From Setophaga petechia (Eukaryota; Chordata; Aves; Passeriformes; Parulidae), in NCBI GenBank assembly GCA_024362935.1, contig JANCRA010000067.1, forward strand, positions 2,231,421-2,295,420: 64,000 bases of DNA, read 5' to 3'. The notes beneath the pieces were generated by a model that saw nothing but the letters and a program-made list of their open reading frames with translations, was not told where the DNA came from and did no database searches. The position numbers and the translations under genes are program-made. Shown here one piece after another: positions 6,148-64,000 of this stretch (position 1 is the stretch's first letter; every line of letters starts with the position of its first letter).

Positions 6148-6505
6148 TCATAGAATTATGGGATGGCTTAGGTTGGGAGGGACCTTAGAGATATTTTCCC
6201 AATTTTCCTGTCTTGGGCAGGGACACCTTCCACTGTCCCAGGATGCTCCAAGCCCCATCCAACCTGGCCTTGGGCACTTCCAGGGATCCAGGGGCACCCA
6301 CAGCTGCTCTGGGCACCCTGTTCCAGGGCTCACCACCCTCACAGGGAACAGTTCCTTCCCAATATCCAATCTAAACCTGCTCCCTTTCAGTTTGAAGCCA
6401 TTTCCCTTTGTCCTGTCACCACATACTCTTGTAAATAACCCCCCTATATATTTTTGCAAGCTCCCTTATGTGGCAATCAGTTGTAAATCCCCTCTTTGAG
6501 CATTG
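6148..6505 (-). mobile_element. CR1 LINE 3' fragment, minus strand
   Basis: Starts at the CR1 3' tail (tcatagaattatgggat near 6148) and runs leftward through the CR1 3' UTR, including the reverse complement of the conserved gtgcccaaggccagg block near 6262-6280. It becomes divergent after about 6430. Confidence 0.92.
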
Positions 6506-8867: not shown

Positions 8868-9093
8868 AGAATTAGATGAGATATTAGAAAGAAATTCTCT
8901 CCTGTGAGGGTGGGAGGCCCTGGCACATGGTGGCCAGAGAAGCTGTGGCTGTCCCTGGATCCCTGGAAGTGCCCAAGGCCAGGCTGGATGGGGTCAGTCT
9001 GGGATAGGGGAAGGTGTCCCTGCCCAGGACAGGAGGTGGAACTGGATAATCTTTAAGCTCCCCTCCAACCCAAACCATTTTGAGATTTTATGA
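8868..9093 (+). mobile_element. Younger CR1 3' fragment nested in an older CR1
   Basis: Well-conserved CR1 3' end from the gatattagaaagaaattct block (8880-8898) to the gattttatgatg tail. Older CR1 sequence in the opposite orientation flanks it on both sides. Confidence 0.92.
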
Positions 9094-9235
9094 TGTACAA
9101 GTGGTCCATCAAGAGCTGAGTAGATGGGGATAAACATTTCCTTGTGTCTCCTGCCTTTATTCTCAATCCAGCCCAGGACACTGTTGGCCTTCTCTGCTTT
9201 CCTCAGGACCCGTGCAAAAGGCGCAGAGTCAAAGC
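9094..9235 (-). mobile_element. Old CR1 fragment, minus strand, right part
   Basis: Continues the CR1 of 8650-8867. The phrase agctgagtagatgggga near 9113-9129 and the stretch cagcccaggacactgttgg near 9170-9188 match CR1 in reverse. Confidence 0.7.
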
Positions 9236-10570: not shown

Positions 10571-13500
10571 GAGAAGAAAAGCTGACACATATTAACGCAC
10601 TCCTGCAGGATGGCAAAAGATATTAAAACAACTGAATTTTCCACAAAGTAGAGAATTCCAACTTCCATCCGCTGTGATCTCTCAGTCTGGGTTCATACCA
10701 CAGAGAGTGTTGCTAATGCCACTTTTATTGGGTGATCTAGCAAAGAAAAGTTCCTGCTTTTAGGATTGCCTGCCTATTGACAGTCACCTTATCTCTGGTT
10801 TTAGGGCTGTCCTAGAGCTGTGCTGCTGAGGAGCATCAGGAAACACCCCTCACAGCCAGTTAATGCTTTGGACAGTTGGTTTTGATGAATATTTATGACT
10901 TAAAAAGAAAGGGAGAAAAAAAAGAGAGAAGGAGACTTGTAGTGTCAGTGTTTGTGTCCTGCTGGTCACAAAAATGGGATCCCAAGGTGACGGGAGTGGC
11001 TGCAGATCCAGCACTGGTGAATCCCATCCCCATCCTCCTTCTCAGAAACTCTGATTTGTGCCTCATTCTTTCACCTTCAGCAACCCAGACTGTATAGGCC
11101 TGATGCCTCAGGTTTGAGCTTTTATATTTCCAGATTCTGTGCTGCTTTAGTGTGTGGGTCTGAGCTTCACATCAGGGCATGCTGAGCTCTGTGCACAGAG
11201 CAGGGAGACAAAACAATTCCTGCTCCAGCTGGGCACCAAGGACAAATGATCCAAATCTCAGCCCCAGAGCACAAACCCCGTGGGCTGCAGAGAGAAAAAC
11301 AAGCAGGGTGGGACTGCCTGGGCTAAAGCTGGGATGGGACAATGAACTGCAAGATGCAAATGGAGCAGAACTGATCCCAGGGAGAGAGCCCGGGAGCGCT
11401 CGTGCATTTTGGGGCCATTTTGGTTCATCTTGGGTGCAGCCCTGGCTGGGCTCTGGTGCTGCATCCATGGAGGATTTTAATAAATCCCTGCTTTATTCTT
11501 TAGCTCTGTCCAGCCTCTGTTCTAGGTCAGCCTTCACAAGGCATCACTGGGATAGTAGAAAAGTGGGCACATGGTTGAGCACCAGCATTTAAATATCTGG
11601 AAACAGCTCTTGAACAGAAACATTTCAATGCAATTCTCAGGAAACAAAACCTCTGATGGTTCAGTGCCCTCCTGACAGTGAATAACCAAGCTCTGGGCAG
11701 ATAAATCCCTGCCAGAGGAGTGATCAGTTCCACCAACACAATTCCCACACTGATGCAGCAGAAGGGAGTTGCTATGTTTGAAATTCATTGTTGTTTAACC
11801 ACATGCAGCATTTCTGTCCTGGGCATCTGCAAGCTTAAAAATGACAATTTGATGTCATTTAATGGTGCTGTGGACACCACTGAGAGTAGGAAGACACATT
11901 ACCTGTTTTGTAGTTTTTAACTCATTAAATCTTTTAATGTCTCCATTAATGCATATTAACAAATAATGACTTTCAGTGGGAGATTTGGCCTTTGTCTTTA
12001 ACCCTATAACCTACATTATAATAATATTATTTATATTTTATATATATAATATTTTCAGAGCCTGAGAACATGCAGCTCTGAATTAGGATCATGCCTTGTG
12101 ATCTGGGTGCAGCACAAATGTGCCCCTCTCAAGGACATGCAGCAAACAGGTGATGAGAAATAACTTTGGATCTCAATTCCCCATCCCTGACATTTTAAAG
12201 AAACAATAAAACCACAAAATTCTTTCAGAGATAACATAAAAGAGAGGCCCAGACTCAGAGTCAGCAGGGACCTGTGATTAGCCACAATAAAACCAAAATA
12301 AGCAGTAATTAATTACTGCCATTTTCACAGGAGCTTGAGAGACAGGGAAACACAATCACACCCAGGTCCTTTCTTCAATCACTAGAGCTGAACTCCAGAA
12401 CATCTCAGACAAGGTGTGACAATTAGAGGGCTTTTCTTTTTACACATTATGAAAAATTCAGACACATCCACCTCAATTCCTTTTCTGAGGAGCTGAAAGC
12501 AGCAGATATAGGAGAAGAGAAGAGATGGAACAGAAAATGACTAGAAAAAAAACAGATGAAATTTCTGGTTCACATCACAGCCTTGGCAGAATATCCAGAA
12601 ATGTTTCCTATGAACAGCTGGAGCCTTCCTATACCCTGGAAAATCTTCCCTGGTTGAAGTTACCCCTGAACACTCCTGATTTTTATATTTTTACAATTTT
12701 ATTCATATTGCTATGGGATGAGATCCTCAAAATTTGAGGTTTTGGAAAGATAACCTACTGTGCAAAAATCTGGACTAGCATGGAGCAACATATTTGAGAG
12801 CAGTTCTTGCTGCAGGTACGTTATACATGCAGCTCACTCTTTCTTTCCAAATTTTTTCCTATTTTTTTTCCCTTTTCCTAACATTTTATGTGTTAATCTA
12901 TTTATTTACTATTGCTGTATCAAGAATACTCTGCCATTACAAACCCAAACTCAAAATTCTTATGAACCAGGATGTAAAAATGCAACTTATTCCTTAATCC
13001 TGCAAAAAGTGCATTTCCTATCTATGTGTGATTCCTTATCTGAATGCTTTCTTTCACATGGCATCAGGGTAGGAGCATAAAAGGTGTGCAAAAATTAATT
13101 TATCACCCATGCACTGCTCATGAGTCCTCTTTAGAAAACCCTACACAACATTTCCTGAGCTGAACCTCTAGGAGGTGTCAGAAAGTTCAGAAATATTGAA
13201 TATTACAAAACATAACAAAATATTACAGAATATTACAAAATAGCACTGCAGAATTACTAGAAACTGAACCAAACAAACCAAACCCAGTGCCAGATTGCTT
13301 ACCCACCCTCAAATCCTTATTTTACTCTTATATCACTGCAGGGTAGGGTTGGATTTAAGGAGGGACAACGGGCAGGGATTGAGATGCTCTGGTGTGAGCA
13401 GCAGATCTCCCCCTTAAAGGGTGACTTCATTCCAAACAAAGCAGCAGGGCTTGGCTGCCTTTCAGGCCCTGACAGATCAGCCACAGGTCTCGCTGGCAGA

Positions 13501-15284: not shown

Positions 15285-15705
15285 AGGCACAGGCTGGGAG
15301 AGCTGGGGGTGTTCACCTGGAGACAAGGAGGCTTCAAGGAGACCTTTGAGCCCTTTCCAGGGCCTAAAAGGGCTCCAGGAGAGCTGGAGAGGGACATGGG
15401 ACAAGGGATGGAGGGACAAGACACAGGGAATGATTTTAAGCTGTCTGAGGGGAGGATTAAATGGGATATTGGGAAGAAATTCTTCCCTGTGAGGGTGGGC
15501 AGGCCCTGGCACAGGGTGCCCAGAGCAGCTGTGGCTGCCCCTGGATCCCTGGAAGTGCCCAAGGCCAGGTTGGACAGGGCTTGGAGCAACCTGGGATGGT
15601 GGAAAGTGTCCCCGCCCATGGCCAGAGTGGAATTGGATGATTTAAGCTCCCTTCCAACCCAAACCAATCCATAATTCTCTGATTCCCTGATTTTCTGATA
15701 ATTGT
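15285..15705 (+). mobile_element. CR1 LINE 3' fragment, about 420 bp
   Basis: One of the longer and better conserved CR1 copies here. It covers the gggtgttcacctgga block (15306-15320), the gaagaaattcttccctgtgag block (15473-15493), and the tail with repeated ctctgattccctgatt near 15675-15692. The open frames on both strands are CR1-derived. Confidence 0.95.
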
Positions 15706-17407: not shown

Positions 17408-18312
17408 AGTTTATTGAATTTCTTGTGAAATTTACCTTTCTGTAAGGAAATAAGAAAAAATCTCTACCTAAACATTGACATGAAACTGTTAGAAATTTAA
17501 TTTTTCTGAGATTGTGGTTCTTCTGTCAAATTCAGTTAAACTGACCCACAGCATTCAGGTTTGAAGGGTATATGGGGGAATAGAAAAATCAATATATTTC
17601 CATATATGTGATCACATTAATTTGCTGTCTTTAGGGTATTAAAGCCCCTCAGCATCTTTCCACCCATTCCCAGTGATGCTGTACAGAATTCCTGGCTCTC
17701 CCACAGCTGCAGTTTACTGAATGTCTTGTGAAATTTATCTTTCTGTAAGGAATCAAGAACAAATCTCTCCCTAAAACTCACATAAAACTGTTAAAATTTA
17801 ATTTTTCTGAGAATGTGATTCTTCTGTCAAATTCATTTAAACTTACCCACAACATTCAGGTTTGTAGGGTACATGGAGGAATAGAAAAATCAATATATTT
17901 CCATATATGTGATCACATTAATTTGCTGTCTTTAGGGTATTAAAACCCTTCAGCATCTTTCCACCCATTCCCAGTGATGCTGTACAGAATTCCTGGCTCT
18001 CCCACAGCACCAGTTTACTGAGTGTCCTGTGAAATTTATATTTCTCTAAGGAATCAAGAACAAAGCTCTACCTAAACATGTACATGGAACTGTTAGAAAA
18101 TTATTTTTTCTGAGATTGTGGTTCTTCTGTCAAATTCAGTTGAACTGACCCACAGCATTCAGGTTTGAAGGGTACATGGAGGAATAGAAAAACCAATATA
18201 TTTCCATATATGTGATCATATTAATTTGCTTTCCTTAGGGTTTAAAAGCCCCTCAGCATCTTTCCACCCATTCCCAGTGATGCTGTACAGAATTCCTGGC
18301 TCTCCCACAGCT
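17408..18312 (+). repeat. Three tandem copies of a ~302-bp unit
   Basis: Copies run 17408-17710, 17711-18011 and 18012-18312 (303, 301 and 301 bp). Each begins agttta(t/c)tga and ends near ggctctcccacag. The last 70 bp are almost invariant, while the first half varies. Copies 1 and 2 contain the perfect 12-bp palindrome ATGTGATCACAT; copy 3 has ATGTGATCATAT. I recognise no transposon signature and no conserved frame. It could be a local satellite seed. Confidence 0.95.
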
Positions 18313-19440
18313 GCCCTGCAAATGAAGAGTTCCTGGGAATTCCCAGAGCTACAGCCACTTGTGGATGAACAGTAAATTCATCATTTTGGGAGGCAAACAT
18401 TTTAAACTGAAAATACACAGTGAGAGTAAATGGTTATTGTAAATGAGGTGCAGTTTGTTCACCTGGTGTTTCTGAATGAGTTCAGACAAAATAAACAACA
18501 TTTGATGGCCAAAAGGCTTAGATCTCACATATTTGTGTTGCTGGAAGAGGTGCTCAAATGGACTTAGATTGAAATTACATGAGAATTTAATTGCTGTTGC
18601 TGAGCAAATCTGTTATTTCTTTTATGTTTTTTAAATAATGGAGAAAATTATCATAACTAAGAGAGACCTAATAACTAAAACCAGCTCAGCCAGAGGGCAG
18701 CAGGAAAAAGAACATTTTAATATCTCTGAGGAAATGAAAACAACTTGCTAACCTTGAGCTTTAGCATATCTCTAATCCTACCCAATCTCCATTTTGCATT
18801 ATCAGTTATCTTGCAAGCCTTTAGCAAAGAAGAAAGCATAAAGTAAATGTCTAAAAAACACTTTTATGTCAAATATCAAAAATGTTCCGATGTGGCTGTT
18901 AGGGAAGGAAAAAAAAAATTAAAATCTATGGACTTCTCCTTCTCAAATATGAAATTATCAGTGGGTGAAATTGTTGACAAACTGTTGTAGAAGTCTTCAA
19001 ACCCAAGGAAATCCTGGATTTAGCCTAAATAACCCCTCAATAGCACATTTTGGTCACAGATTCTGAGCTGGAGAGAGACCGTGGGGCTAAAATCATTTGG
19101 AAAGAGGAGACAGCAGATAAAGTGTTTTCTTCTGTCTAAAACTCTAAGAGAATGAATGTCCCCTTAGAGAATCTTGCACTCCAAAAGGAGCAAGAAACGA
19201 GCACTGCAGAAATGTGTTCTTGGGAAGGGCAGGAACAGTAAAATCCTTCATCACTCTGAAACCCTCCAGGGAAATCCAGATCTAGAGGGGGGTGGAAGAG
19301 TGAGGTCAGGCACTGAGCATGCACAAAGGCTGGGAAACCTCAAATTCCCCAGCACAAATTAAATCTGCATCAAAGATGTTCCTTGAGACTATTTTCCCTC
19401 AACATGTTGATTGGATTTACAGTCTAAACCATATTGATAG
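18313..19440. other. No recognisable feature
   Basis: AT-rich single-copy-looking DNA without convincing coding or repeat content. Confidence 0.55.
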
Positions 19441-20196: not shown

Positions 20197-20317
20197 TTTT
20201 AGGATGGGTTACACCAATGTCTAGAGGTGTCACTCACTAAGTACAGAAGAACACTAAATATAGAAGAATCAAAATTATATATAAATAGAAATAAATATCT
20301 TCATCTGAGGAACTGGC

Positions 20318-20490
20318 AAAGCTTGCCCAGAGAAGCTGTGGCTGCTCCTGGATCCATGGAAGTGCCCAAGGCCAGGCTGGACAGAGCTTGGAGCACCCTG
20401 GGGTGGTGGAAGGTGTCCCTGCCATGGCAAGGGTGGCACTGGATGGGCTTTAAGGTCACCTCCAACCCCAACCATTCCTGGATTCTCTGA
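20318..20490 (+). mobile_element. Truncated CR1 3' end inside unit A
   Basis: Plus-strand CR1 from cttgcccagagaagctgtgg (20318-20337) to the gattctctgattcc tail. Its 5' junction (aactggcaaagc) differs from the unit B copy. Confidence 0.92.
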
Positions 20491-21066
20491 TTCCAATCCA
20501 GATATCCAGCATTTAGGGGGCTAATTATTGCTCTAAGTGAATTTCCTGATTTATTTAGGCACAGAACTCAGCCCTAACACACACACAGGAAAGTTCAGAG
20601 GCAGCTCTGATTCATTCATGGTGTCCTTTTAGGCAAAACTGGCATGGAAGAAAAGGATCACAGAGATCATCAGATTTTGGCACAGATGGGATCCACAGCT
20701 CCAAAATCTGCACTTCCTCATGTGGAAAATAAATCTGGGAGAAACAAAACCTTCTTGTCAGGAGCAAAGATTTCCCTGGAGTGAGCAATTCATCCCTTGC
20801 CCAGGGAAACAGAGGAGGGTTTGTGGGGTTGGGTTGTGCACCCTGGGGATGGCAGTGCCAGGAACATGTGGGCTTTAGGGCTGGCAGGGCTTTCTAAGGG
20901 GCCTCACAGAGCTTAAACAGGTGGCAGATTGAACAACCAGGTTTTGGTGTTTTTTTAGGATGGGTTACACCAATGTCTAGAGGTGTCACTCACTAAGTAC
21001 AGAAGAACATGAATTAGAGAAGAATCAAAATTATATATAAATAGAGATAAATATCTTCATCTGAGG

Positions 21067-21250
21067 CTCTGGCACAGGTGCCCAGAGAAGCTGTGGCTGC
21101 CCCTGGATCCATGGAAGTGCCCAAGGCCAGGCTGGACAGAGCTTGGAGCACCCTGGGATGGTGGAAGGTGTCCCTGCCATGGCAAGGGTGGCACTGGATG
21201 GGCTTTAAGGTCACCTCCAACCCCAACCATTCCTGGATTCTCTGATTCTA
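21067..21250 (+). mobile_element. Truncated CR1 3' end inside unit B
   Basis: Counterpart of the CR1 in unit A. It keeps a few more consensus-like bases at its left end (ctctggcacaggtgcccag), suggesting that unit A is altered there. Confidence 0.92.
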
Positions 21251-21711
21251 ATCCAGATATCCAGCATTTAGGGGGCTAATTATTGCGCTAAGTGAATTTC
21301 CTGATTTATTTAGGCGCAGAACTCAGCCCTAACACACACACAGGAAAGTTCAGAGGCAGCTCTGCTTCATTCATGGTGTCCTTTTAGGCAAAACTGGCAT
21401 GGAAGAAAAGGATCACAGAGATCATCAGATTTTGGCACAGATGGGATCCACAGCTCCAAAATCTGCATTTCCTCATGTGGAAAATAAATCTGGGAGAAAC
21501 AAAACCTTCTTGTCAGGAGCAAAGTTCTCCCTGGAGTGAGCAATTCATCCCTTGCCCAGGGAAACAGAGGAGGGTTTGTGGGGTTGGGTTGTGCACCCTG
21601 GGGATGGCAGTGCCAGGAACATGTGGGCTTTAGGGCTGGTAGGGCTTTCTAAGGGGCCTCACAGAGCTTAAACAGCTTAAACAGCAGGTTGAACAGCCAG
21701 GTTGTTATTCC

Positions 21712-24711: not shown

Positions 24712-25123
24712 GAAAACTTTTTCCCCAGCTGATCAAACATTACACAGAATATTCTGCCACTGGAAACATTTAAGTGTAGCAATATTAAATATGTACCCAC
24801 AAGAAATTCCAAGTATTAGGTGAAGAAATACATCAGATGGAATTATTCTGGACATTTAGAACACCTGCATTGCAGTTACATTTAAAATTCAGTTCATACA
24901 CCAAGCCAACTTTGTGAGTCATGAAACTCATTGTTTTCTCAAGTACATTTGGAGCCAGACAAATGAATGATGGTTTGGGATCCTTTCTTCTCCATAATTT
25001 TATGATGACTTTTGTTAAAAAACAACAAACCAACAACACATAGCCCAATGTTATCACAGATGAATGGAATGCAAAGTCAATCCAAATGCCAGTCAGAAAA
25101 ATCAAAATGCGAAAAAAAAAGAC
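24712..25123. other. No recognisable feature
   Basis: AT-rich, unique-looking DNA. Nothing gene-like was seen. Confidence 0.5.
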
Positions 25124-25240
25124 ATCATGGAATCCTAGAAAGGTTTGGGTTGGAAGGGACCTCAAAGATCATCCAGTTCCAATCCCCTGCCATGGACAGG
25201 GACTCCTCCCACTATCCCAGGTTGTTCAGAGTTTCATCCA
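25124..25240 (-). mobile_element. CR1 3' terminal fragment, minus strand
   Basis: Reverse CR1 3' end: catggaatcctagaaagg near 25126-25143, then ggttggaagggacctc near 25148-25163 and the atcccaggttgttcag block. Confidence 0.92.
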
Positions 25241-28562: not shown

Positions 28563-28613
28563 CACAGGAAGCAATACGAGGCTGAAGAAGCAGACCTTCC
28601 AGTTGATGGCCAT
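28563..28613 (-). CDS. Putative first coding segment with signal peptide (gene unidentified)
   Basis: On the minus strand the ATG at 28613 starts 17 codons, MAINWKVCFFSLVLLPV, ending exactly at a splice donor (GTG|GTAAGG, intron from 28562), so the intron is phase 0. The context GAGAAGATGG is a strong Kozak match. A lysine at residue 6 followed by a hydrophobic run (CFFSLVLLPV) resembles the first part of a secretory signal peptide, whose end would lie in the next exon. An in-frame upstream ATG at 28646 would add 11 residues but has a poor context; an in-frame TGA lies above both, within the exon. I cannot identify the gene, and no further coding exon was recognised between here and position 1. 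It could still be a chance exon-like pattern. Confidence 0.55.
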
Positions 28614-28711
28614 CTTCTCTCCTAATTTTGGATAAGTTTTGTTCATTAACACTGAGATTAGGACTGAAGCACTGGCTCTGTTGATATTTTGAGGTCTTCA
28701 CATCAAGATCT
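28614..28711 (-). other. Putative 5' UTR part of the start-codon exon
   Basis: The minus-strand acceptor at 28712/28711 reads as a pyrimidine-rich tract, then TTTTGTTGCAG|A, a good match to consensus. Together with the donor at 28562 it defines a 149-nt exon (28563-28711). An in-frame TGA lies upstream of the two candidate start codons, as expected when translation starts in this exon. Confidence 0.5.
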
Positions 28712-30217
28712 CTGCAACAAAAGAGGAAAATTATTATAAATATGTAAACCACAGAAAGAATGAAAAAGAAATGGACAGAAAACAGTGAACCCAAAACTTG
28801 AATTGCAAGTGGCACTTATTAGAGATGAACCAGTTTTTTTGCAGATTTTAAAGGTGGTCTTGGATATCTAATTTAAAGGCAAAGGACTTGGTGTGATCAG
28901 TTACTTGTGTCAAAGAAATGCTGGAACAGGTTCTGTAGCTGCAAACACCTAAATTGTACCCAGGGGAGGAGGAAGGGTGGATTATTTAGAACAAGAAAAA
29001 AAAGAACTTTCTGCTTCACCTCTGAAGTTGTGGCTCACACTTCATGATTTTCAGTAGTGTCTTAAAAGCAAAACTGTCTGGGGGCTTTGTAGGGGTCTGG
29101 CTCCCAAGACAGGTTGTCCAGATAACAAAATCCATTGTCAGACTTGTTAATAAGCTGTTAATAGACTTGTTAATAAGCTGTTAATAGACTTGTTAATAAC
29201 CTTTCTGAGAACTTGGCAGTAGGGGGGCAAAAGAATGAATTATAGTCTCAGGCTAAGGATTCATCCAGGACACAATCAGGAATGATTTATATGAACAACA
29301 ATGTCATTCATATCTGTGACTTCCACTGCTTGGCCTCTGCTCTGGAAGAATTGAGGACTGGGAGGAATGTGGTTTAAGATTTGGATTTATTTCTCATTAT
29401 CCTACTTTGATTTGTAAAGGAATGATTTGTAAAAGAACTTTTAGAACCAAAGGATATTCAAGTTTTATAAAGACTGCAACACATTGCCAGGACATCAGCA
29501 TTTAGGAAGGAGAGAGTCTTTCAATTAAAAAAATAAAAATGGAAAATCGATCTCTTTCTAAATTTTGGGAGAACAATGATTCATGAAATTCACTCTAGAC
29601 TGATCTGTTTTCTCCTATCCTCACTTGATCAGTCACTCATGCTCTGTTCTGGCACTGAATTTAATTACCTAACTGTATTTCTGATGGTTTATCAAATAAT
29701 GAGCAATTGATAAGATCTCAGCTGAGGAGGACAGCAAACATCCCTGGTGACATTCAGCCGTGAGGACTTGGAATTCCATTAACAGCAGCAAGACAAAAGC
29801 AGACAGCTGCATTAGCAGCCACTGGATTTGAAATTATTTCCTGATCATTTGCACTCCTGTGTGCAGCTCAGTCCAGAAAAGCCAGAGAGGAGTGGGGAGG
29901 TTGGATTCTGTCCTTTCATCCTGTAGTTCATCAGGAAATGATCAAAAGGCAGTGGAAGGGTGGGAGATGCCTGGCTGAGAGATGGACACACACAGATGCC
30001 CTGGGTAAAAGGGGTGACCTTTAGAACACCTTTACTCTAACCTGGCAATCCCTAGGTTTGAAAAGTGGAGGGTGGCTGTTTTCTGTCTTGTCTGAAAGGA
30101 GCCTCTAAAGAGACAACAATCACATCTGCAAACCATTCCATGGCTTTTCTCTAACATATTGCAGGGAAAATAAAAGACTCTACTTCATTTTTTGCCTTCA
30201 AGGTAGTCATGGAAACC
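28712..30217. other. No gene; putative large intron
   Basis: Unique-looking apart from the 23-bp tandem repeat at 29141. In the proposed gene model this lies in the first intron. Confidence 0.45.
29141..29201 (+). repeat. 23-bp tandem repeat, about 2.6 copies
   Basis: Units start at 29141, 29164 and 29187 (gacttgttaataagctgtta...). The first two are identical; the third breaks off after about 14 bases. Confidence 0.95.
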
Positions 30218-43509: not shown

Positions 43510-43755
43510 TTTTGATTGGATATTAGAAAGAAATTCTATACTCAAAGGGTGGTGATGCCCTGGCACAGGGTGTCCAGAGAAGCTGTGGCTGCCCCTGGAT
43601 CCCTGGAAATGCCCAAGGCCAGGCTGGTCGGGGCTTGGAGCACCCTGGGATAGTGGAAGGTGTCCCTGCCCATGGCAGGAGATGGAACTGGATGAGCTTT
43701 AAGGTCCCTTCCAACCCAAAACTTTCTGTGATTCTATGATTTTGTGATTCTGTGC
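43510..43755 (+). mobile_element. CR1 LINE 3' fragment
   Basis: Well-conserved plus-strand CR1 just right of the GC-rich LTR, ending in an expanded tail (gattctatgattttgtgatt, about 43730-43749). Confidence 0.95.
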
Positions 43756-48974: not shown

Positions 48975-49285
48975 TAGATGTGATGGAGAGAGTCTATTTA
49001 CAAGGACACGTAGTGCTAGGACAAGGGGGAATGATTTTAAATGGAATGAAAAGAGGTTTAGAGTGGATATCAGGAAGATATTGTTCCCTTGAGGGTGGTG
49101 AGGTGCTGGAACAGGTTTCCCAAAGAAGTTTTGGATGTCCCATCCCTGGCAGTGTCCAAGCCCAGGCTGGATGGGGCTTGGAGCAACCTGGGATGGTGGA
49201 ATTTGTCCCTGCCTATGGCAGGGAGTGGAAGGGGATAATCTTCAAAGTTTCTTCCAACCCAAAGCGTTCTATGATTCCATGACAA
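48975..49285 (+). mobile_element. CR1 LINE 3' fragment
   Basis: Plus-strand CR1 from gtgctaggacaagggg (49009-49024) through the gtgtccaagcccagg block to the ttctatgattccatgac tail. The two plus-strand open frames here are CR1-derived. Confidence 0.95.
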
Positions 49286-50409: not shown

Positions 50410-50690
50410 TTAATTGCCTTCTTTACTCAGAGGATGGTGGGGCACTGGAACAGGCTGCCCAGAGAAGTTGTGGATTTCCTTTTTCTGGAAGTGTCCAAGG
50501 CCAGGCTGGACAGGGCTTGGAACAACCTGGGACAGTGGAAGGTGTCCCTGCCATGGCAGGGGTGAAACTGGATGGGCTTTGATCTCCCTTCCAGCCCAAA
50601 CCATTCTGTGAATCTCTGATTCTATGATTGATTCTCTGATTCTATGATTGATTCTCTGATTCCACCATTGATTCTCTGATTCCACGTTGA
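50410..50690 (+). mobile_element. CR1 LINE 3' fragment with expanded tail
   Basis: Conserved plus-strand CR1 whose terminal repeat has grown into about four imperfect ~20-bp units (gattctctgattctatgatt) between about 50612 and 50685. Confidence 0.95.
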
Positions 50691-55800: not shown

Positions 55801-58154
55801 TCAACACATTTTTTCTTTCCCCTTAAGAATCCTCACAGAATCAGACTGGGCAATGCAGTGTCCCTTGCAGGGACAGAAAGCAGCAAAATTCAACTGATTC
55901 TGAGCAACAAATTAATAAAAATTTAAAAAAAATCCAGGCTATTAACCCACCACACAGATTAAAACATCTTTTCCTGCCTTAACCCTCAGCTCCAGTTAGC
56001 AAAGCAACAAATCATAGATGGCAGACCATAATTATCCTTCCATTTGCAGCTCCCAAGCAATCGTGACCCAAGCATCTCTAATGGGGTGCAAAAGCCACTG
56101 TCATTGAGGCACATTTCTTGTGGAATGCCTCAAACTGAATGGACAAACCTGAAAACAGACCTGGCAGATGTTTAATGTACGTTCATTAAGGAGCTCTTAG
56201 ACATCAACACTCCCAATGTGTCACAAAATAAATTATTATTATTGCTATTGCCATAAAAATTATTATGAAGAATTTGACCATATACACACTCGTCCCCTTT
56301 TCTCTCAGTTTTAGAGGGAATTATTAATTACATTAACAAAAACTAGAAATATTAAGTTATTTGTTGGGTATTTTGGTGCTTGTTTTAGTTATAGTTTTTT
56401 TAACAATGGTATTAAGGAGAGGTTTTTCCTCCTTTAAAAACTATTTTTATAAAAAAACCAATGGCAGTCAAATAGATCAAAGTAGTTTCAGGTTGTAGGT
56501 CTCTGTCAAGGAGTAAGATATGACACCTGAATGAGCAGGGATGAGACTTTCAGGGTGTCTCCAGATAAATTGAAGGATTTTTATTTAACAGAGCAGCAAA
56601 CAGGAGTCCCTGCAGCTGCCTATTTCTGCAGGACTCTTTCAGGAATACTGAAATATTCCTCAGCATCACAGCCACGCTGGTTTTAAATCCTCTGTGTGGT
56701 GATGCTTCCACCTTTTCTTTAGGAGATGGAATGGTTTAGCTTGTCCTGAGAAGTTCAGCCCTGAAATGATTAATCTGGCTACTCTGGAGATGAGCTTGCA
56801 GGGGGACACACTCACTGAGCTGCAGTGAGTTACATAAACAAGGCTCGAACAACCCAGCGAGTTTTACACTCATTCCCAGTTTGCCTTGTGCAGCTAAAAG
56901 TGCAAGCCTAAGGAGACAGATAATAAATTGAGAGAGCAAAAGGTGGTCAGAGGATAAAACACCAGCAAAGCAATGGAGTGAAGGGTGGACATTCTGCCAC
57001 AAAGCTTCTGAAAAAATAATAAACCTGCCTTTTCCCCCCATATATTTGTGCCCACTCAATTACAATCCCAACAGCCTTTCAGCAGCCACAACAGACACAG
57101 GAATTCTAGAACTCAGTGCTGTGGAAAAGTACCAAACACCTTTCTGTATGCAAAGCATTCCCTAAGAACAGAACAAGTTCAGCACCAAGGGAACTGGGAA
57201 AGTCTCCTCAGGGATACTCTGAGCAGCCTCTTTCAGCGGTGCCACAGCTCAGCCTGACCAGACACTGTCAGCAAAGATGACTTTCAAGTTGTGGATAGCC
57301 AAAAAAATAAAGAGAGAGTTCCTCACTGCTGCATTTACATCCTTTTCAGCAGAGCTGTTCCACTTCTGTCCTGATGTGGAAAATTCACTCCAAAACCCTG
57401 TTGACTGCAGTGTTGCTGAAGCACAGATGGTATGGGATTGGCTGGACGTGACAGGAGCAGAGGAAATGGAAACAAGGAAACACAGGCCAACAAAAAATTC
57501 CCCTCCTTGACTTAAAGATTGCGGCTGCACTCTCTGGGCCAAGGAAAGGGGTGAAATAAAACTGAGCATCTCCACTGCCTTCCACATCCTCAGATCAGTT
57601 TTCCTCTCCTGGGAGCAGTGGTAAATAAGCAATTTCTCTGTTAAAATCAGGACCAACTGCAAGACCTGATATTTCTGCAGGTTTCCCCACCAGGCATGAG
57701 CTGCAGCATGATTCTGCCCTGAGTTCACTTCTTTCTCAGCTCCTCTTAACTCAGATACTCTGCTTTCATTAAAAGATAATCTGAGCTAATTTAGGAATTA
57801 GACTGTTTGTACTAAGTGTGCTCAGAAGGAAGGAAAGGCAAACAAAATCTGCTACATTGGAATGAATCAGCTCGGGGACACGGGGCTCAACTTAGCAAAG
57901 GCACAGGCACATATGGAACTCAACCCCAGGAAAAAAATATCTCCGGGATGCTGTCTCAGTCAGCCAAACGAGGAGAGATGTGATGAACAAAGGTCTGAAT
58001 GTGCTCAGCAGCCCAGCCCACAAGCTCAGAAATCTCAGGTTTTCTCTCCCTGGTAGCATCCCACAACAGAGCTCCTGCCTCCGTGTTTGTGAGCCTCACA
58101 AACAGCAGCAGCAGCAGCTCTGGGCAGCTCCGTGGGGCTGGGGCACCACCGTGC
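52861..58154. other. Long stretch without a confident feature
   Basis: Single-copy-looking DNA. Open frames at 53455-53941, 55531-55800 and 57249-57728 carry no domain I recognise. In the proposed gene model this lies in the first intron. Confidence 0.5.
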
Positions 58155-58160
58155 CAGCAG

Positions 58161-58477
58161 CAGAATTCCTAAACCCATAGTGAGGAAAGAGCCCCAGCAG
58201 CAGAATTCCTAAAGCCACAGTGAGGAAATAGCCCCGGCAGCAGAATTCTTAAAGCCACCGTGAGGAAACACCCCCAGGAGCAGAATTCCCAAACCCACAG
58301 TGAGGAAATAGCCCGAGCAGAAGAATTCCTGAACCCACAGCAAGGAAAGAGCCCCAGCAGCAGAATTCCTAAAACCATAATGAGAAAAGAGCCCCAGCAG
58401 CAGAATTCCTAAAGCCACAGTGAGGAAACACCCCCAAGAGCAGAATTCCCAAACCCAGAGTGAGGAAATAGCCCTCC
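58161..58477 (+). repeat. 40-bp minisatellite, 8 copies without indels
   Basis: Units start at 58161, 58201, 58241, 58281, 58321, 58361, 58401 and 58441, exactly 40 bp apart. Each opens with (c/a)agaattc and contains gtgaggaaa or a close variant. Every unit keeps an EcoRI site (GAATTC). Copies 3-4 and 7-8 share private variants (acaccccca, then gaattccc), pointing to a four-unit higher-order repeat. Three units equal 40 codons, which explains the repetitive Leu/Gly/Phe-rich minus frame. Confidence 0.97.
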
Positions 58478-59689
58478 AGTTTCCTGCAGGGATCCCTATG
58501 GATGATGGAAAGCTAAAGCCCAGGAGCAAGCACAAAGTCTGTTTAAAGAGAAATAAGTGATTTATCCCACAAAAAGCCCCCTCCTCGTGACCTTGAAGGC
58601 TGTGGTTATCCTCCCAGCCATTCACAGGTCTTTGGTTGGAGAGAACAAAACAGCGGAAATCTTGAGATAAATGCCTGGGACAAAATGAGATCAATTGGAG
58701 CTGTCCTGAATGACAGCAAAGCAGCAACCCTGGCCCACAGCACATGGAAACAGGTGGGAATAAAACTGAAGATCACAACCCACACACAAGCAGACACATC
58801 AACTCTAATCCATCCAACTCCCCTTATTGCCCTGACCAGCATTCCTTAACAATTCACCAAATTCCAATATTGCCTTACCCATCCTACAGGACAACTTCCT
58901 CCAAGCCAGCTCCAGGCTGTCTGGCATTAGCCGAAGAGAGATGCTTGTATAACACGTTCTTTCTCTGCAGCTACACCAGGAGCACTTTCAGGAGTTTGCC
59001 TCTGTGCTATGATTAACCTCCAGCAATCAAACATTCCCTTGGATGAGCCACAGGAGCATTTCCCTGCTGTACCTGACCAGTGCTGCATAGGCTGGGCAGA
59101 GGAGTGAGGGGGCTGTGTACCCAAATAACAGCAAGTGCAAATCCATTTGTTGTTTTTTTTTTTTTTTACTCCAACAGATGAAATAGAAAAATCCAACATG
59201 CTACTTCTGTTACATATTGCTGTACCAGTCCACCACACACACTGTAATTAACATGCACCAGACGGATGGTAATTGATAATTCCCTGAGAAAGAATCACAT
59301 CACTTTGCTGCCCTTATTCACTTTAGTTAAGATTTTCTCCTTATTACAGCTACCTCCAGTGCTACTCCAATACATCCTTCAAGCTAAAGGCCAGCTTCTG
59401 TTTACCTGCAGATCAGATGCAGAAGAAATCCACTGACTTCCAGGGAGTTCTTCTAGATCTGCTGCTGTGTAAGTGGGATGATCGTGCAGCCATAAACACC
59501 AGTGTGCCACTAATCAAATCCCCCTTTTTCTTCCCCGTGCGTTTTCCAGTTCTGCACAGCAAGCTGCATTATCACATTCTGCCTGCAAACTCCTCAGATT
59601 CCAACACATACCTGAACGCTTCCCATCCTAAATTCAGAGCACAGCGGGAGGGAAGGAGCCTGTCCTGTGTGCCATCCCCCTGACTGGAG
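58478..59689. other. No recognisable feature
   Basis: Moderate GC, unique-looking, with a poly(T) run at about 59151-59168. Lies between the minisatellite and the CpG island. Confidence 0.45.
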
Positions 59690-60215
59690 ATGTGCTCGGC
59701 ACGAAGATGATATTATTAGAGCCAGCTGCTCAAACACCGATAAGGAGCAGTGCCCAGGGGCACACGAGCGGAGGTCAAAGGCACAGGAACCCGCAGTTTC
59801 TCCCTACTACCCCACAGTAAAACCAAGCAAGTCCTGCTGCACCGCTCGGAGGCTGAATCAGAGTTTCTGTGGCAGGTGAGGATGCGGAGCTGCATCGGGA
59901 AACGCCGACAGCAGCGGCGGGGCTGTTAACAATCAGGTTTTATTTACCAGCCATATTGTGTTAAAACCAGACGTGATTCCCATACCGAGCGCCTCAACCT
60001 GTCACCGCCAGCAAAGGGAGATTGATTTGTTTGCGGAGAAGCAAATCTATCTGGAGGACGCATCCTCCGAGCCCGCATGCAATCCCCACCGAGAAGTGTC
60101 CCCAGGAGCTGGGGACAAGGAGGTAAATCAGTGATCAGAGCCAGACAAGCCGGCGGTTCCTGTGGCATCCTCGGGGGATGGGGATGCCCCGGCAGGAGCT
60201 GGGGGAAGGACTCAC

Positions 60216-60430
60216 CATTGCAGCAGGGCTCGGTCCCGGCGCTGGCGATGCCGCATCCCCGCGGGGGGACAGTGGCCGCGGGGAGCGGTCCAAGCCCCGC
60301 TGCCCGCGCTGGCTGCCCCCGGCCTCCGAAGGGAATCCAAATTCCTCCTCCCTCGCCTGCCGGTCATGTCCAGGCTGCCTTTGCTCAGGGGATGGGCCAG
60401 CTCCTGGCCGTGAAGGAATTTGCCATCGCT
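60216..60430 (-). other. Putative non-coding first exon ending at a consensus donor
   Basis: On the minus strand the sequence CAATG|GTGAGT (exon end 60216, intron from 60215) is a consensus splice donor inside the CpG island. The transcription start is not visible; 60430 is only a nominal right limit before the poly-A tract. An ATG at 60256 opens 13 codons that reach the donor. If joined to the exon at 28711, the next codon becomes TGA, so this would be a short upstream frame. The link to the 28.6-kb exon is inference. Confidence 0.4.
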
Positions 60431-60437
60431 AAATCAG

Positions 60438-60473
60438 AAAAAAAAAACAAAAAAAAAAAAAAAAAAAAAAAAA
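60438..60473 (+). repeat. Poly(A) tract inside the CpG island
   Basis: About 36 bp of A with one C, followed by an A/C-rich stretch to about 60530 and a T-rich one to 60592. No target duplication suggests a retrotransposed insert. Confidence 0.95.
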
Positions 60474-61110
60474 TCCCTAACAAACCAAACCACAAAACTT
60501 AAACAGCAACAAAATAAAAGCAAGAAGGGAAGTGGGATATTTTAAAACTTTTTTTCCCCCTCCTCTATTTTTTGTTTTCTTTTTTTTTTAAGGGTGCTCG
60601 GGGCGGGGCGGGGGACCAGAGGGGTGCTCAGGCTGGCTGGGATGCTGCGCCGGGGTGAGATGCACCGGTGCGCTCGCCCGGGCCCCCGTGCCTGTGTGTG
60701 ATTCTCATACCCAGACAATGCTCTGCAAAGCGAGCTGGTCCTGCGGAGAAATGCAAACACCTCCTCCCCCGAGTGCCTGAGCAAAGGGAAAGGCGATATG
60801 GAACCAATAGCTTCTCCTTGGCTGCTCTCATTAATATGGACGAGAAAAAGAAACCAATGAGGAGGAGCGGGAGGAGGGATTTATTCAAATCAAATTTCCC
60901 GAATCGAACACCCTTTTTCCATTTTTTTTCTTTCATTTTCCCACGTACCCCAAATCTGCCTTCTCCCTGTCGCTTTAGCCCGATTTCTGCTGTCCCGGAA
61001 ATTTTTATTTCTTATTTCATTTCTGTGACAGGGTCAGCAGCACACGGCGATGGGAGGGACGATGGCATCGCTGCTGCGAGCGAGCGGGGGCTGTGCGAGG
61101 GAGGATGAAA

Positions 61111-61494
61111 GGAGCCAATTTCTCCCGGACCTGCAGGGTTGATTGCAAAGAGAAGCAATAAAGTAGCTGGAGTTGTCAGAGAGAGGAACTGACAGGGAGC
61201 AGAGCTGGAATTTCAGCTGGAAAAAAAACATTTTGCAGATGAGGTGTGCAGATGGGCTGGTGGCCTGTGTCCAGGCTGAGCCCTCTGAGCTTGGAGAGAA
61301 TCTTCTACAGGAGATGCACAGCCAGGGAAGGAAATGACAGCACAGAACAGCAGCATCTGCACTGTCCTGCAGCACCACAGAGCCACAGGACCCCTGGAAC
61401 AGCCATGCAGGAGTGGCACCTGTTGCTGGAAAATGAGTGGAAATGGAGCTGTAGGGAGAGCTGGAGAGAGGGTAAGGGGTGTCCAGTCTCAAGA
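61111..61494. other. No confident feature
   Basis: GC-moderate flank of the CpG island. Several frames are open on both strands, without recognised domains. Confidence 0.45.
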
Positions 61495-63065: not shown

Positions 63066-63464
63066 TTCCTTTAAACAAAGGAGGAAAAAAAAGGCAATTT
63101 TATAATAAAATGAACTAAATCCATGACGTGTCCAGCATGAAAAGCCCTGTCCCAGTTGCTGTAGTGCCCCTGTGGCTCTGGGCCCACGTGCAGGAGCCTG
63201 GGGGGCAGAGCCCCAGAGCAGAGCAGCCAGCCCTGCTGCAGTGCCTTGGCACAGCCACAGCCCCATGGCTGCACAGAGGCCTCCTCTGGAGAAAACCTTG
63301 TCCAGACACGCTGTGAGAGCACTCTGCTCTGGTTTGGTTCCAGCACCATGGAGCAGGCTAAAGAATCAGCTGGAACTTCCAAAGCTTTGCTTTGTGGATT
63401 TTCCTGCAGGTCTGTCGTCTTCTCTAGTCACATCTCACAAAGAAAATAAATTAAAGATTGTGGA
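63066..63464. other. No confident feature
   Basis: GC-moderate, with open frames on both strands and no recognised domain. Could be an unidentified repeat. Confidence 0.4.
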
Positions 63465-64000
63465 ATAATAGAAATATTTATGTTGGAAGAGACCTTAGAA
63501 ATCATCCAGTTCCAACCCACTGCCATGGACAGGGACATCTTCCACTATCCCAGGTTGCTCCAAGCCCCATCCAGCCTGGCCTTGGGCACTTCCAGGGATC
63601 CAGGGGCAGCCACAGCTTCTCTGGTACCCTGTGCCAGGGCCTCACCAACCCCATAAAAAATTTCTTCCCAATATCCCCTCTAACCCTGTCCTCTTTCAGT
63701 TTGAAGTCATTCCCTCTTTCTTGTCACTCCAGTTGTTTTCCAAAGTCCCTCTCCAGCTCTCCTGGAGCTCCTTTAGGCCCTGGAAGGAGCATTGAGCTCT
63801 CCCTGGCTCCATCTCTTCTCCAGGTGAACACCCCCAGCTCTCCCAGCTTGTTTCCAGAGCAGAGGAGCTCCAGCCCTTAGATCAAGTCTGTGTGCTCCCC
63901 TGGACTCTCTCCAACAGGTCCATGTCCTCCTTGTGTTGGAGATCCCAGATCTGGAACCAGCATTGCAGGTGGGGATTCTCAGAGCAGAGTGGAGGGGCAG
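63465..64000 (-). mobile_element. CR1 LINE fragment, minus strand, runs off the edge
   Basis: The longest uninterrupted CR1 here (more than 530 bp), in reverse, from its 3' end near 63475 to cagagcagagtggaggggcag at the window edge. It includes the block cttctccaggtgaacacccc (63814-63833). The 140-residue plus-strand frame is the reverse of CR1 and not a gene. Confidence 0.96.

Follow-up and report, generated by a model that had tools for sequence, protein, structure and literature searches.

A 149-nt segment at 28563-28711 on the minus strand of the 64-kb window (the whole stretch of DNA analysed, 64,000 nucleotides) is probably a real exon, the second of an ordinary vertebrate gene, and would carry the end of the 5′-untranslated region (5′-UTR), the start codon and a signal peptide or signal anchor. 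A real exon is favoured because no other place in the window shows its combination of elements at any of three cut-off levels, because Markov sequences rarely produce it, and because the only CpG-rich stretch of the window sits upstream with a good donor on the same strand. One database relative, in which the exon is kept and the adjoining intron altered, likewise favours a coding exon, with a conserved donor.

Sequence elements of the exon-like segment

The segment comprises 98 nt of 5′-UTR plus 51 nt of coding sequence (17 codons), and its ends match the consensus acceptor and donor of a spliced exon. Every signal named by the sequence-only reading is present: (i) a splice acceptor, in which a pyrimidine tract precedes TTGCAG/A (28712-28730; 8.3 bits), with TTGCAG ending at 28712 on the minus strand; (ii) an in-frame upstream stop, TGA at 28700-28698; (iii) a Kozak ATG at 28613-28611, in the context GAGAAG/ATGG, whose −3 base is A and +4 base G; (iv) a donor, GTG/GTAAGG, whose GTAAGG occupies 28562-28557 (4.8 bits) and which leaves phase 0. 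The claim of 17 hydrophobic-type codons stood in part: the 17 codons are present (28563-28613) and encode the signal-peptide-like MAINWKVCFFSLVLLPV, ending in phase 0, but not all are hydrophobic, the best 12-residue stretch holding nine residues of the set A/V/L/I/M/F/W/C.

Three ATGs (28703, 28646 and 28613) lie in the exon, all in one frame. The first is directly followed by the TGA that serves as the upstream stop, and the two form a start-stop element in the 5′-UTR (28698-28703), in frame with the main start; such ATG-TGA elements can tune translation. The second (28644-28646) has a weak context and, if used, adds MNKTYPKLGEK to the N terminus.

Judged by eye, the peptide (MAINWK-VCFFSLVLLPV) has a positive n-region and a hydrophobic core within the range of 7-15 residues, a single lysine being followed by an 11-residue hydrophobic run. 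That the segment starts a secreted or membrane protein, as had been proposed, is plausible from these residues, the coding-exon part of the proposal being supported by the relative P0002 (below); the signal-peptide cleavage site would fall in the next exon.

A CpG-rich stretch upstream as candidate promoter

The CpG observed/expected ratio of the whole window is 0.10, and its only CpG-rich stretch, a candidate promoter at 59501-61250, reaches 0.60-0.72 in 500-base windows. A minus-strand donor, GCAATG/GTGAGTCC (GTGAGT; 60210-60221; 6.0 bits; last exon base 60216), is the best found on that strand between 59.0 and 62.5 kb, and is a possible end of an untranslated exon 1. The stretch also holds a stronger plus-strand donor (exon end at 59875; 8.0 bits) and possibly serves the other strand or both, as a bidirectional promoter; its link with the exon at 28563-28711 is putative. 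A 40-base minisatellite of eight copies (58154-58474) lies about 1 kb from the CpG-rich stretch.

A transcript starting in this stretch would have to splice over 31.5 kb to reach 28711. In the proposed course of events, the untranslated exon 1 would end at 60216 in the CpG-rich stretch, the segment would be spliced at both of its ends, and ribosomes would bypass the two weak upstream ATGs and initiate at 28613. Exon 2 would then encode a signal peptide or signal anchor that targets the product to the endoplasmic reticulum, and the next exon would lie more than 28.5 kb leftward, outside the window.

Conservation of the exon in database relatives

A 54-residue frame covering the start was compared with 5.77 billion predicted proteins, which yielded two candidates and two hits, P0001 and P0002; both carry the source code 'lgn', which we take to denote Logan assemblies. 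P0001 (65 aa) begins at the position matching the upstream ATG at 28646 and shares 64 of its 65 residues with the window. All 37 of its intron codons and all 11 upstream codons are identical, and the single change (F9I) falls inside the exon (16 of 17 exon residues kept). In P0002 (69 aa) every one of the 17 exon residues is identical, and VRK follows, as a read-through of the donor would give. Beyond that the intron departs from the window, with changes in 11 of 47 comparable codons against 0 of 17 for the exon (one-sided Fisher P=0.023, in a count that omits inserted codons and follows alignment costs chosen by the analyst) and where the length changes at two or three places, with none in the exon. 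As the search needs shared five-residue words, relatives in which the exon has changed would escape it, which biases the Fisher value towards conservation.

Set against its flank, the exon is the better-kept part in P0002, the one informative relative, compared in protein letters only; P0001 speaks slightly the other way, its sole change being exonic. The P0002 pattern favours a coding exon with a conserved donor.

Proteins that continue from this start into another exon were sought among those of about 30 to 945 aa, and none was found: at about 94-299 aa no candidate shared three words with the start, and at about 297-945 aa three shared-word candidates were retrieved, none of them matching at E values up to 10. 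The IMG/VR, GTDB and phage collections, which may omit records close to the genome of the window itself, held no relative, as expected for bird DNA. The lack of a continuing protein would fit an alternative or lineage-limited first coding exon that gives an isoform its own signal peptide, the main start lying elsewhere. Such an exon, a special case of a real exon and compatible with the preferred reading, seems on the whole rather unlikely: no competing start exon of this kind was found in the window, the null is limited to proteins of the lengths searched, and bird transcripts may be sparse in the database.

How unusual the combination is

A candidate was defined as an exon in which a Kozak ATG follows an in-frame stop and its frame stays open to the donor, and candidates were counted at strict cut-offs (the acceptor and donor scores of the case itself, set post hoc) and at the looser cut-offs of 5/3 and 3/2 bits. 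The window holds 1, 2 and 17 candidates, respectively. The single strict candidate is the segment at 28563-28711, which in both looser sets is also alone in having 8 or more hydrophobic residues out of 12; the assertion that these signals come together nowhere else in the 64 kb held with the hydrophobic start at all three levels.

In 60 first-order Markov sequences, examined at the strict and 5/3 cut-offs, the strict cut-offs yielded 0.1 candidates per 64 kb and 0.017 (1 of 60) when 9 or more hydrophobic residues out of 12 were required, none of these in phase 0, and the 5/3 set gave 2.8 per 64 kb, 0.27 with a hydrophobic start and 0.067 also in phase 0; all of these chance figures are rough, as the splice matrices are approximate and the strict cut-offs post hoc.

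The individual signals are common. Acceptors scoring at least as high as this one number 34 in the window, and donors 36, both strands and the signals themselves included. In a general exon scan of both strands the segment ranked 32nd among the best 60 non-overlapping rows, where it was read in a different frame and its coding score fell slightly below zero; the ATG frame could not be scored because the scan needs a frame open across the whole exon and this one holds the upstream stop.

Each splice signal has dozens of equals, and 17 codons are short, so that splice-like and start-like signals might have come together by chance in a non-coding, moderately conserved stretch; the exonic change in P0001 and a retrieval that favours intact exons point the same way. 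Against this, a combination of such strength appeared in one of 60 Markov sequences, and the exon of P0002 is intact while the intron next to it is altered in residues and length. We consider a chance assembly unlikely.

The segment itself is not repeated in the window. Repeats were seen elsewhere: 12 intervals (862-1026, 1899-2047, 6148-6437, 8868-9096, 15289-15692, 20197-20920, 20953-21675, 25122-25227, 43514-43749, 48995-49282, 50419-50629 and 63460-63851) each match 8 to 11 other places in the window and are probably one dispersed repeat family. Among them, 20197-20920 and 20953-21675 (about 720 bases each) have the look of a near-tandem duplication, with similar frames about 755 bases apart. 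At 17408-18314, a 301-base unit occurs three times in tandem with 90% matches.

Search for further exons and for the identity of the gene

The gene had been proposed to run left out of the window, which fits the absence of recognisable exons in the 28.5 kb leftward of the segment, as far as scans insensitive to short exons can tell. In the three minus-strand frames of 1-28562, neither a Pfam family nor a solved structure (PDB) was found at E 0.1. Both kinds of scan are insensitive to short exons and were run without a positive control, so that these blanks, and the wider ones below, are weak. With no exon recognised leftward, the next intron may be longer than 28.5 kb, unless a short exon escaped the scans. 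Among the best 60 rows of the exon scan, the sole phase-0 minus-strand candidate leftward was 10788-10825 (38 nt; 9.9 bits in total; coding score 0.9), which is not convincing as the next exon.

Wider searches were also blank. No Pfam family was found in the three minus-strand frames of the whole window (E 0.1 / E 0.01), on the plus strand over about 49.0-64.0 kb (three frames) and 34.1-49.1 kb (one frame) at E 0.01, or with the 54-aa frame itself; Rfam gave nothing in the window at gathering scores. A solved-structure match of the 17 residues plus three read-through residues to FlhB (E 4.1) is at chance level. Stretches of the peptide were not found in a literature search, and listings of gene-architecture papers held nothing useful.

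Contactins often start with M-x-x-x-W-K followed by a hydrophobic run, and their introns are very long. The first six residues here resemble that start, with W-K at positions 5-6 of a short signal-peptide start and putatively long introns, so that the exon, if real, could belong to a neural cell-adhesion gene of the contactin type (CNTN family). No contactin domain or protein was matched, and no immunoglobulin or FnIII domain was found on the minus strand of 1-28562 (Pfam and PDB), a blank that says little either way, as the next exon may lie outside the window; this assignment is unlikely. That the segment is a pseudogene, a decayed exon from a gene start, is highly improbable: the failure to recognise a further exon leftward would fit, but the start, the frame and both splice sites are intact and the exon residues of P0002 are unchanged.

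Discussion

A general architecture well established among vertebrate genes places an untranslated exon 1 in a CpG island and has exon 2 encode the signal peptide. The segment shares with it a CpG-rich stretch and donor upstream on the same strand, and the joining in one exon of the 5′-UTR end, a Kozak ATG, a hydrophobic start and a phase-0 donor. Compared with that architecture nothing here is distinctive; a signal-peptide exon 2 is an already known and ordinary kind of feature. It is quite unlikely, though conceivable, that the segment marks an unannotated gene start, either of a secreted or membrane protein that evolves fast or is confined to birds, or of a known large gene's signal-peptide isoform that has escaped annotation, its three in-frame AUGs including a translation-tuning AUG-UGA start-stop.

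The result suggests that a single exon of 149 nt, probably a real one, can be spotted in 64 kb of mostly non-coding DNA by reading the raw sequence. If the reading as a second exon is right, the segment would mark the start of a gene with about 32 kb between its first two exons, and would help to annotate the locus.
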